Assembly: GCA_903922465.1 (NCBI GenBank)
Contig: CAIXTV010000044.1
Span: 1-45,572, forward strand
Source: an uncultured bacterium
GTDB taxonomy: Bacteria; Bacteroidota; Bacteroidia; Bacteroidales; CAIXTV01
Length of the DNA stretch: 45,572 bases
Direction of reading: 5' to 3'
The notes beneath the pieces were generated by a model. The model made no database searches. It had not been told where the DNA came from and saw nothing but the letters and a program-made list of their open reading frames with translations. The position numbers and the translations under genes were made by a program. Positions 13,786 to 35,100 of this stretch are shown here, in pieces (the first letter of the stretch is position 1; every line of letters begins with the position of its first letter).

Positions 13786-14124
13786 ATGCATCTTCATTCA
13801 TACCTCAATAATATACAATTTGGGTTGTCTGACACTAATTCGGGCAATCGCCTGCCTATATACTTTAGGCAAATAAAAATAATTGAATCTACATCTCAAA
13901 TAAGAATGTTCGGATACAATTTAGAGCAGGGTAACATGTTACCCAATGCTAACGCAAATATTTCAGGGCAGGGTAACATGTCACCCGACACTAAATTAAA
14001 AAATTCAGGGCAGGGTAATATGTTACCAAGCACTAACGCGAATATTTCAGGGCAGGGTAATAAGTTACCCAACACTAAATTAAAAAACTCAGGGCAGGGT
14101 AACATGTCCATCAATCATGTTTAA
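13786..14124 (+). CDS. Doubtful ORF carrying 14-residue repeats
   Basis: About 112 residues. The first 45 are without recognisable features. The rest is four and a bit copies of a 14-residue repeat, alternating between GQGNMLPNANANIS and GQGNMSPDTKLKNS types. An in-frame GTG at 13765 exists, but it sits directly on the promoter element, so ATG 13786 is preferred. Against coding: the opposite strand is also open across the array (13896-14114), because a 42-bp period preserves all frames. In favour: the promoter and an unbroken frame running into and out of the repeats. It may be only a transcribed repeat leader for the 14177 gene. Confidence 0.35.
   Translation: MHLHSYLNNIQFGLSDTNSGNRLPIYFRQIKIIESTSQIRMFGYNLEQGNMLPNANANISGQGNMSPDTKLKNSGQGNMLPSTNANISGQGNKLPNTKLKNSGQGNMSINHV
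13926..14109. repeat. 42-bp tandem array with palindrome, alternating A/B units
   Basis: Units begin with gcagggtaa at 13926, 13968, 14010, 14052 and 14094 (the last partial), exactly 42 bp apart. Units 1 and 3 share the tail gctaacgcaaatatttca. Units 2 and 4 share cactaaattaaaaaattca. The higher-order period is therefore 84 bp. Unit 1 contains the perfect 16-bp palindrome gggtaacatgttaccc (13929-13944); the other units keep it imperfectly. There are no unique spacers. Confidence 0.9.
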
Positions 14125-14934: not shown

Positions 14935-14971
14935 AAAACCTAACAGGTTTCGAAAACCTGTTAGGTTTTTT
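14935..14971. terminator. Perfect 16-bp hairpin, probable bidirectional terminator / interspersed palindrome
   Basis: aaaacctaacaggttt (14935-14950) pairs perfectly with 14954-14969 across a cga loop and is followed by T residues. It lies 72 bp after the 14177 stop. The long perfect palindrome suggests an interspersed repeat element as well as a terminator. Confidence 0.75.
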
Positions 14972-25382: not shown

Positions 25383-27389
25383 ATGTACGACATTGTTGAA
25401 TTAAACTCTAAACTACTAAACGACCTAAAGGATATTGCCAAGCAGCTGAATATCCCAAAAATTGAATCGATGAAAAAACAAGACCTCATTTATCGTATTC
25501 TCGACCAACAAGCCCTAAATCCAAGCAAAGATATACTTGATAAAGAACGCAAAAACAAAGAGGTAGCCCTAAAAAATCGTAAACGCAAGGAATTTGTTAA
25601 GGTTGTCAATCTAAAGCCAGGTGAAAAAGCTCCTGTTGAACCTCCTGTTAAAGCAAAAATTGTTCCTGTTTTGAAAAATAAAATTGAAGAAACTGTTGAG
25701 AGTGTTGTAATTGAAAAGCCTGTTCCTAAGAAAAGCCATCATCCACATTTAAATCTTGAAAAGAAAAATCCAGCTTTAATTGTCGAGACTCCTGCTGTTC
25801 GTAAAGAAATTCAAACGGCTAGTGGAGAAGCGCCTGTTTTGCCCGTTCAGGAAAAAAATCAGGAGAAAAAACCTTTTGTTAAGGCTACAGTTAAACCTGT
25901 GCGCAAGAATGTTAATCCAAATCAGGCAAATCCTAATGCGAGAAAAATTAATCCTCCTATTTCCGATGCTAACAAACCTGAAGTAAAAAAAGTCATTATC
26001 AATCTGAAAACTGAAGATCCTTTCATAAAGGAACTCGACAGTACTCCTGATATTGAACCTATTATTGAAGAAATAAACATTGCCGCAGCTATTGTTCCGA
26101 ATACGGACATTGTTGAAATAACACCTGCTGTTACACCTAATGTTAGGCCTAATTTGAATGCTCCACAATCAGGCGAAAAAGATAAAAATACCGAAAGAGA
26201 ACACTTTAATAAGAATTTGAAGTTAAAACCTAATTTCGTTGAGCGTCGTAAAGATGATACCCCTAATGAATTTGACGGAATTGTCAGCGCTCAGGGAGTT
26301 GTTGAAATTATGCCTGATGGGTATGGTTTTTTACGTTCATCAGACTACAACTATTTGAATTCGCCCGACGATGTTTATATTTCGCAATCGCAAATTAAAT
26401 CGAACGGCTTAAAAACTGGCGATACTATTAAAGGTACCATACGCATTCCACGCGAAGGCGAAAAATACTTCCCTTTAGTTAAGGTTGAACTTATTAACGG
26501 AAAACGTCCAGAAGAAGTTAGAGACCGCATTCCTTTCGACTATCTTACTCCATTGTTTCCGATGGAGAAATTCACTTTAACGGGGCATGCCGAGAATTCG
26601 CTGTCGACTCGTATCATTGATTTGTTTACTCCAATTGGAAAAGGTCAGCGTGGGCTTATTGTGGCACAACCAAAAACTGGTAAAACTGTTTTGCTTAAAG
26701 AAATCGCCAATGCCATCGCCAGTAACCATCCTGAAGCATACCTAATTATTTTATTGATAGACGAACGTCCTGAAGAAGTTACGGATATGCAACGCAGTGT
26801 AAATGCTGAAGTTATATCTTCTACCTTCGATGAACCCGCCGAGCGTCATGTGAAAATTGCCAATATTGTTTTAGAAAAAGCCAAACGTCTTGTCGAATGT
26901 GGGCATGATGTTGTGATTCTACTCGATTCAATTACACGATTGGCAAGGGCATATAATACTGTTGCACCTGCTTCAGGGAAAGTGCTTTCGGGTGGGGTAG
27001 AAGCCAATGCTTTGCAAAAACCCAAACGCTTTTTTGGAGCAGCCCGTAAAATTGAAAACGGAGGTTCGCTTACCATCATTGCTACGGCTTTAACCGATAC
27101 AGGTTCGCGTATGGATGAAGTTATTTTTGAGGAATTTAAAGGTACAGGAAATATGGAATTGCAGCTCGATCGTAAGTTATCGAACAAACGCATTTTCCCT
27201 GCTATCGACATTGTTGCTTCAAGCACTCGCCGCGACGACCTTTTGGTTGATAAAGAATGGCTGCAACGCATTTGGGTGTTACGGAATCACCTAGCCGACA
27301 TGAACTCCCTCGAAGCTATGGAGTTCCTTAAAGAAAGAATACGTTTCACACAATCAAACGAAGAATTTCTGCTGTCGATGAATAGCTAA
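25383..27389 (+). CDS. rho: Transcription termination factor Rho with long low-complexity insertion
   Basis: 668 residues, against about 420 in E. coli. Residues 1-43 are the N-terminal helical Rho_N domain. Residues about 45-295 are a K/P/E/N-rich, probably disordered insertion. The RNA-binding cold-shock-like domain is at about 298-370 ([20 protein letters not shown]). The hexameric ATPase has P-loop QPKTGKTVL (430-438), a Walker B-type [16 protein letters not shown] segment and the C-terminal [18 protein letters not shown]. Insertions of this kind are typical of Bacteroidota Rho, and in Bacteroides thetaiotaomicron such a region has been linked to phase separation. It is monocistronic, with its own promoter and a strong intrinsic terminator. 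Confidence 0.97.
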
Positions 27390-27498: not shown

Positions 27499-27532
27499 AA
27501 AGTGCTGTTATTGTAAAAATAACAGCACTTTT
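27499..27532. terminator. Intrinsic terminator after rho
   Basis: aagtgctgttatt pairs perfectly with aataacagcactt around a short gtaaa loop, followed by tttcatttt. It lies about 110 bp past the rho stop. Confidence 0.9.
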
Positions 27533-27553
27533 CATTTTATGGGTATAAGAGAT

Positions 27554-27794
27554 CTACTTCATGACATATTTTATCAAAGCATGACATATTTTATCAAAGC
27601 ATGACATATTTTATCAAAGCATGACATATTTTATCAAAACACGACATATTTAAGCAAAACACGACTTTTTTTATTTAAACACGACATATTTTATCAAAAC
27701 ACGACATATTTAAGCAAAACACGACATATTTAAGCAAAACACGACATATTTAAGCAAAACACGACATATTTAAGCAAAATATGTCATGAAGTAG
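27554..27794. repeat. 20-bp tandem array (11 units) framed by a 19-bp perfect inverted repeat
   Basis: Eleven contiguous 20-bp units run from 27561 to 27780 with no spacers. Units 1-3 are atgacatattttatcaaagc and unit 4 ends in aaaac. Units 5 and 8-10 are acgacatatttaagcaaaac, and unit 11 ends in aaaat. Units 6 and 7 are intermediates. The ends are ctacttcatgacatatttt (27554-27572) and its exact reverse complement (27776-27794). It lies between rho and a convergent YdeI-like gene. No ORF spans it. The flanking stretch 27795-27964 holds nothing recognisable. Confidence 0.92.
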
Positions 27795-27964
27795 AAAAGT
27801 ACAACCTAACTAAGAAAAGGTTTCTGTCTGTTGATTTTTCAAGTAATGATTTGGAATTAATTTACACTTTAAATAGATTGATGTATATATTTAGGTATAT
27901 GATGCAACTTTAATGTTTACAGTGCATTGAAAATTAACGACTGTTATAAAGTTACATCTGAATA

Positions 27965-28435
27965 CTAATTTGGGTTTTTAACTTTATTGCTTAGCAAGTC
28001 AACCCCTTTTTGAATTCTTTTGATGCGGGTTTCTGAGCGCTTTGCACCTTCAATCCAATTCACATATTCTTTTCGGTTTGAAAACGAAAGGCTTTCAAAG
28101 AAGTCAAATAATTTATTCGTATTGAGTTCAAGCAAAAAGTCATCTGGAATAATCACCAAGCGTTCATCCAAATCTTGTTCAATAATAAAATGAACAGTAT
28201 CGCCCTCATTTTTATTGATTTTTAAGCGCAGGGCTTTTAAAATGGGTAAAACGTGACAACCCATCCCCATATTTGCAAGCGAACCACGATAATACTCTCC
28301 ATCAATCCAAACTTTAATTTTGATTTGATTCTTTTTCCCAAAGATTTCAAACACATCAAAAGGAAATCGAATAAAGCAAGCATTAATCTCAGGCACTTTT
28401 TCAAGCACAGCATCAAATTCGAAACGGGGTATCAT
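27965..28435 (-). CDS. DUF1905 / YdeI-OmpD-associated-like protein
   Basis: 156 residues. The N-terminal half (about 4-95) resembles DUF1905: F.A.L.K..., then FIRFPFDVFEIFGKKNQIKIKVWIDG..YRGSL and MGCHVLPILKALR. The C-terminal part (about 108-153, LNTNKLFDFFESLSFSNRKE YVNWIEGAKRSETRIKRI) is the helical "bacteriocin resistance YdeI/OmpD-associated" segment. The biochemical role of this family is not established to my knowledge. It is cytoplasmic, with no signal peptide. It is separated from the upstream lipoprotein gene by a hairpin at 28459-28487 and so probably has its own weak promoter, though no TAnnTTTG match was found. Confidence 0.8.
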   Translation of the reverse strand: MIPRFEFDAVLEKVPEINACFIRFPFDVFEIFGKKNQIKIKVWIDGEYYRGSLANMGMGCHVLPILKALRLKINKNEGDTVHFIIEQDLDERLVIIPDDFLLELNTNKLFDFFESLSFSNRKEYVNWIEGAKRSETRIKRIQKGVDLLSNKVKNPN

Positions 28436-34875: not shown

Positions 34876-35100
34876 CAGGTTTTCAAAAAACAGGCCTTGT
34901 CTACTATTATTCTGTGACAGTTTTTCAAAAAACTGACCATGTTTACCATTATTCAATGACAGTTTTTCAAAAAACTGACCATGTTTACCATTATTCAATG
35001 ACAGTTTTTCAAAAAACAGGCCTTGTCTACCATTATTCTGTGACAGTTTTTCAAAAAACTGACCATGTTTACCATTATTCAATGGCAGTTTTTCAAAACT
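34876..35100. repeat. 42-bp tandem array (5.4 units, two unit types)
   Basis: Units begin with cagtttttcaaaa (first copy caggttttcaaaa) at 34876, 34918, 34960, 35002, 35044 and 35086 (partial), exactly 42 bp apart. Type A units (2, 3 and 5) contain the inverted repeat cagttttt/aaaaactg followed by accatgtttaccattatt. Type B units (1 and 4) read aaaacaggccttgtctac and break the inverted repeat. Order is B-A-A-B-A. Both strands are open through the array because 42 is a multiple of 3. No convincing start or family supports coding. Confidence 0.9.

Follow-up and report, generated by a model that had tools for sequence, protein, structure and literature searches.

The window, the whole of the 45,572-nucleotide stretch analysed here, is contig C44 of a 5.02-Mb assembly comprising 312 contigs. 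Its genes and the search results suggest a member of the Bacteroidota. Between the rho gene and a convergent DUF1905/OmdA gene it carries a tandem array of 20-bp units whose outer edges are mirror images of each other. The features of this interval are as follows.

25383 to 27389, plus strand: rho
27499 to 27531, plus strand: terminator-like hairpin of 14 pairs, 3' of rho and outside the array element
27553 to 27572, plus strand: left arm of the inverted repeat, TCTACTTCATGACATATTTT, made of 7 bp of flank (TCTACTT) and the first 13 bp of unit 1
27560 to 27779, plus strand: tandem array of eleven 20-bp units, CAYGACATATTTTATCAAAR and variants, from Tandem Repeats Finder and an in-phase unit split
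27660 to 27679, plus strand: unit 6 of the array, CACGACTTTTTTTATTTAAA, a sequence that recurs unchanged as the final complete unit of the C159 array end
27760 to 27788, minus strand: terminator-like hairpin facing the DUF1905/OmdA gene, with 12 pairs, a 5-nt loop and a weak T tail, built from unit 11 plus the flipped edge
27776 to 27795, minus strand: right arm of the inverted repeat, AAAATATGTCATGAAGTAGA, a flipped copy of the left edge; the AAAA with which this arm begins also closes unit 11 and is a candidate switch-point microhomology
27965 to 28435, minus strand: DUF1905/OmdA gene

Tandem Repeats Finder reported a period-20 repeat at 27563-27779 (10.9 copies, 91% matches, no indels), and the in-phase split gave exactly 11 units, which are AT-rich (26% GC) and contiguous, without spacers. 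A preliminary description of this DNA had counted eleven contiguous units and placed them in the convergent gap after rho, and both statements hold. Its view that the units grade from one type into another is only loosely right, since the units run A A A A' B C A'' B B B B, where B is CACGACATATTTAAGCAAAA and C is CACGACTTTTTTTATTTAAA. The inverted repeat that it saw at the edges is indeed present and perfect but is 20 bp long, one more than the 19 bp reported, with 13 bp of each arm being repeat-unit sequence and 7 bp lying outside the array. No other perfect inverted repeat within 320 bp anywhere in the 45.6-kb window is as long, the next being 16 and 14 bp; shuffling the window 200 times under a first-order Markov model gave at most 16 bp within the same distance, reached once. 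The sequence CTACTTCATGACATA occurs exactly in the genome only twice, at both ends of the C44 array.

A BLAST search of the genome found the array sequence on four further contigs, in each case outside recognised genes.

Contig C278: array piece downstream of recQ
Contig C81: array piece adjoining a 225-aa ORF
Contig C134: array piece about 770 bp upstream of a 146-aa ORF
Contig C159: array piece about 300 bp from two tRNA-Leu genes

Each of these pieces terminates its contig, those on C134 and C278 being left ends and those on C159 and C81 right ends. Since two left and two right ends all sit at contig ends, the four pieces are probably two further long arrays that were cut by the assembly, which would make approximately three arrays in all. 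A two-unit pattern was found at 37 places, all within the five array contigs, and the reversed control gave none; solo 20-bp units were absent from the genome. The family thus consists of related contiguous units in five pieces at approximately three loci, and it is non-coding, all six reading frames of the array being interrupted by stops and every piece lying outside recognised genes.

The pieces have their edges in common. All three left edges start with TTCATGACATATTTTATCAAA, whereas internal units are instead preceded by AGC or AAC, and both of the other right edges (C159 and C81) end at CACGACAT and then give way to unrelated sequence. Under uniform phases the probability of this agreement is near 1e-4. 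Unit 6 of C44, which differs by five substitutions, is matched exactly by the last full unit on C159, and the left ends of C44 and C134 run through the same order of G-type, A-type and CAC-type units. In the longer arrays the middle is homogenised to CAYGACTTATTTTATCAAAA, and the middle-unit type GACTTATTTTATC shows a partly alternating CAC/CAT. The arrays are therefore related as multi-unit blocks from TTCATGACAT... to ...CACGACAT, and since the unit variants, the left-end order and both edges are common to several loci, the array appears to have spread as a block with fixed ends. This relationship fits ordinary minisatellite homogenisation. The preliminary description had favoured a discrete element over simple local slippage, and had allowed that this would suffer if there were neither a second copy anywhere nor an empty site in relatives and the boundary repeats were not conserved. 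Further copies do exist, and a discrete, dispersed element is supported by the four other pieces in the same genome, their common edge phase and the five-substitution unit present at two loci. The boundary repeats are indeed not conserved, and the inverted repeat does not define the ends of this element, since its outer 7 bp (TCTACTT) lie at none of the four other array edges.

The striking "terminal inverted repeat" is thus confined to one locus once the other copies are compared. Pairwise tests of the 40-bp flanks of the other array edges gave no significant inverted pairing; for the two longer arrays, which are incomplete and whose left and right pieces are not assigned to each other, the test was made edge by edge. 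No terminator-like hairpin resembling that at 27760-27788 was found at the other array edges. On the left, C44 shares CTTCATGACATATTTTATCAAAG with the C134 edge and matches it from CTTCATGACAT onwards. Since the C44 left edge agrees with C134, we take the left arm to be the older one and the right arm to be its reverse-complement copy. Beyond the array the left flanks of C44 and C134 are weakly similar (p=0.004 before correction for 15 comparisons; other pairs not significant), which could represent a decayed leader.

Beyond this genome, we searched an order sample of 393 genomes, including the source genome, and a phylum sample of 296, neither of which includes another genome of the same genus or family. 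No second genome with the array was found in either sample. Matches in the two samples and in viral contigs were isolated and AT-rich, and those inspected never lay in a 20-bp array; the phage matches were short and attributed to chance. Since the sampled genomes include no member of the same genus or family, the array family may be wider at that level. Eight of the relatives sampled have a homologue of the DUF1905/OmdA gene, in no case with rho in the flanks examined. A scan of genome contigs returned three matches, two of them single and without a second unit, and the third at the end of an alphaproteobacterial contig. This last contig, CAIOTO010000023.1 of a MAG, begins inside GTCATGTTTAACTTAAATACGTCATGTT, and its positions 1-36 cover about 1.4 units of what may be a similar repeat of 20 bp. 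An intergenic AT-rich array of 21-bp units, about TTTTAATGACATATTTTATGA, lies at 1500-1600 of the Spiroplasma citri plasmid NZ_ON511091, and its core TGACATATTTTAT matches the 20-bp unit with E=5e-3, which is not convincing as a sign of relationship and is probably due to chance.

Several other repeats were seen in the window. A second intergenic array, with 42-bp units CAGTTTTTCAAAAAACTGACCATGTTTACCATTATTCAATGA, lies at 34876-35098 and has an 87% identical copy on contig C124 (69747-69969). Past the array the two have approximately 40 bp of tail in common, and an imperfect inverted repeat, AATTATACCGTGAC / AATTATACGTGAC, flanks the C124 copy. With its copy on C124, this 42-bp family means that dispersed arrays recur in the genome, and it looks a better MITE candidate than the 20-bp array, and more like the BrickBuilt element considered below. 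A third array, also of 42-bp units (AATTCAGGGCAGGGTAACATGTTACCCAACACTAAAGCAAAA), at 13918-14107, is apparently single copy, with a weak 36-bp match on contig C182. A perfect 16-bp hairpin, AAAACCTAACAGGTTT-CGA-AAACCTGTTAGGTTTT, followed by a T tail at 14935-14969 is a strong terminator-like or REP-like element, and a 231-bp tandem repeat (2.1 copies, 86%) at 1-483 has a length that is a multiple of 3 and may be coding.

Candidate functions for the 20-bp array were also considered. Protein coding was rejected on account of the stops in all six frames. In predicted curvature the array exceeds ordinary DNA of the window, but it does not exceed permuted or run-shuffled 20-bp units; since such units equal it, the signal is a by-product of periodicity. 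Over the array region no Rfam family scored above threshold, and microRNA matches remained below their gathering scores. The sigma-70-like promoters come down to TTGATA/TAAAAT, which recurs with the unit, and since Bacteroidota use a promoter consensus that differs from the sigma-70-like one, we have not taken them as promoters. By default the array most likely has no dedicated function, and the description best supported is that of a repeat that is passive or weakly exapted.

We therefore propose, with a probability of roughly 0.6, that this is an interspersed non-coding minisatellite present at approximately three intergenic loci, in which the inverted repeat at C44 is secondary and arose via a template switch. 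Tandem arrays of the unit CAYGACWTATTTTATCAAAA at these loci would change in unit number and mix through replication slippage and unequal recombination within each locus, which would homogenise the middle of an array and let older variants persist at its ends, and blocks would have been copied to new loci, for example by ectopic conversion or rare transposition. At C44 the replisome, on reaching the right end of the array, may have jumped to the left edge through the AAAA microhomology at 27776-27779, copied approximately 16 nt of that edge in reverse complement and then switched back. The AAAA shared by unit 11 and the right arm offers a suitable microhomology for the switch point, and the perfect 20-bp reverse-complement copy reaches 7 bp into non-repeat flank. 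The flipped copy would have replaced the canonical right end and, by chance, formed the weak terminator-like hairpin on the minus strand. Template switching makes perfect inverted repeats in E. coli (PMC7202029) and generates new hairpins (PMC8794818), and in quasipalindrome template-switch mutation a reverse-complement copy of a nearby stretch yields a perfect inverted repeat (PMC7202029, PMC8794818). The E. coli reporters involve a short quasipalindrome, whereas an array separates the C44 arms by approximately 200 bp, and the event proposed here is read from the sequence of this one locus. The mirror-image ends of the C44 array are thus most likely a local accident found at no other copy.

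An alternative is that the array sits, as in BrickBuilt, inside a non-autonomous transposon of the MITE type whose terminal inverted repeats have stayed intact only at C44 and decayed elsewhere. The perfect 20-bp inverted repeat at the C44 edges, with its TCTACTTCATGACAT, would be expected of such an element, as would several dispersed copies with fixed edges and the weakly similar left flanks of C44 and C134. In the second array family of this genome the copies do have sequence in common outside the array, and an imperfect inverted repeat flanks it, and even in BrickBuilt both terminal inverted repeats are kept in just 4 of the 19 copies (PMC4596501). Against this, the outer part of the inverted repeat is present at 0 of 4 other edges, the bases beside the arms (G at 27552 and A at 27796, plus strand onward) show no obvious target duplication, and a transposase was not found in the flanks examined. 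Since terminal repeats common to the copies were looked for and the outer 7 bp occurred only at C44, we have not filed the array as a MITE and regard this origin as unlikely. It is rather improbable that the palindrome came first, as a hairpin of CTACTTCATGACATATTTT and its complement, perhaps the terminator of the minus-strand gene, of which one arm was then amplified in tandem. With the array removed, CTACTTCATGAAGTAG would be a 16-bp palindrome, and the last unit and the flipped edge still form a terminator-like hairpin. However, arrays of 20-bp units occur at unrelated loci that lack such a palindrome, and C134 has the same left edge, so the array would have preceded the palindrome.

The regular 20-bp spacing, the conserved CAYGAC core and the intergenic sites might also suggest functional protein-binding iterons (nucleoid, segregation or regulatory) under selection, the inverted edge serving to anchor a loop, yet homogenisation alone accounts for the conservation, the gene contexts of the three loci are unlike and the array turned up in no other genome of the order and phylum samples. 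For the protein-bound loop offered in the preliminary description we found no positive evidence, A-tract phasing being no better than in permuted units, and we consider this reading very unlikely. The flipped right edge might instead be a chimeric join in a fragmented assembly, one of 312 contigs with 3.98% contamination in which all the other array pieces end a contig. A 20-bp repeat is short for an assembler overlap, however, and a single contig carries the array unbroken between ordinary genes, so that an artefact has little chance of being the explanation. We give scant credence to the idea of a site-specific element, N x 20 + 8 bp long with the 8-mer CAYGACAT at both ends, whose copying or extension would depend on a dedicated recombination activity recognising this core and not on passive slippage and conversion; the fixed ends would be what suggests such an active mechanism, which is unlikely. 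An interspersed minisatellite with a secondary inverted repeat at C44 remains our preferred reading.

The MIRU and VNTR loci of mycobacteria resemble the 20-bp family in being related tandem arrays at several intergenic loci, and differ from it in unit length and sequence. The STAR elements of Staphylococcus aureus, a closer parallel, are likewise interspersed intergenic direct repeats, but they have a GC-rich 14-bp repeat with recurring spacers of at least 40 bp (PMC3532100), whereas the units of the 20-bp family are AT-rich and contiguous. The closest described element is BrickBuilt of Porphyromonas gingivalis, a minisatellite within a MITE with a 23-nt unit and 19 copies (PMC4596501). Both have a short, spacer-free tandem unit, are dispersed and always intergenic, contain imperfect units and have a limited host range. 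BrickBuilt has a leader and a tail with IS5-type inverted ends common to its copies (PMC4596501), whereas the 20-bp family has approximately three copies, no established common leader or tail, and an inverted repeat at one copy. If its arrays vary in length, they may offer typing markers for this uncultured lineage. The family adds another lineage-restricted interspersed minisatellite to those of the Bacteroidota, its fixed ends and common unit variants indicating block-wise spread, and it seems to be a further case of interspersed minisatellites, a class already known in bacteria, and not a novel kind of element.
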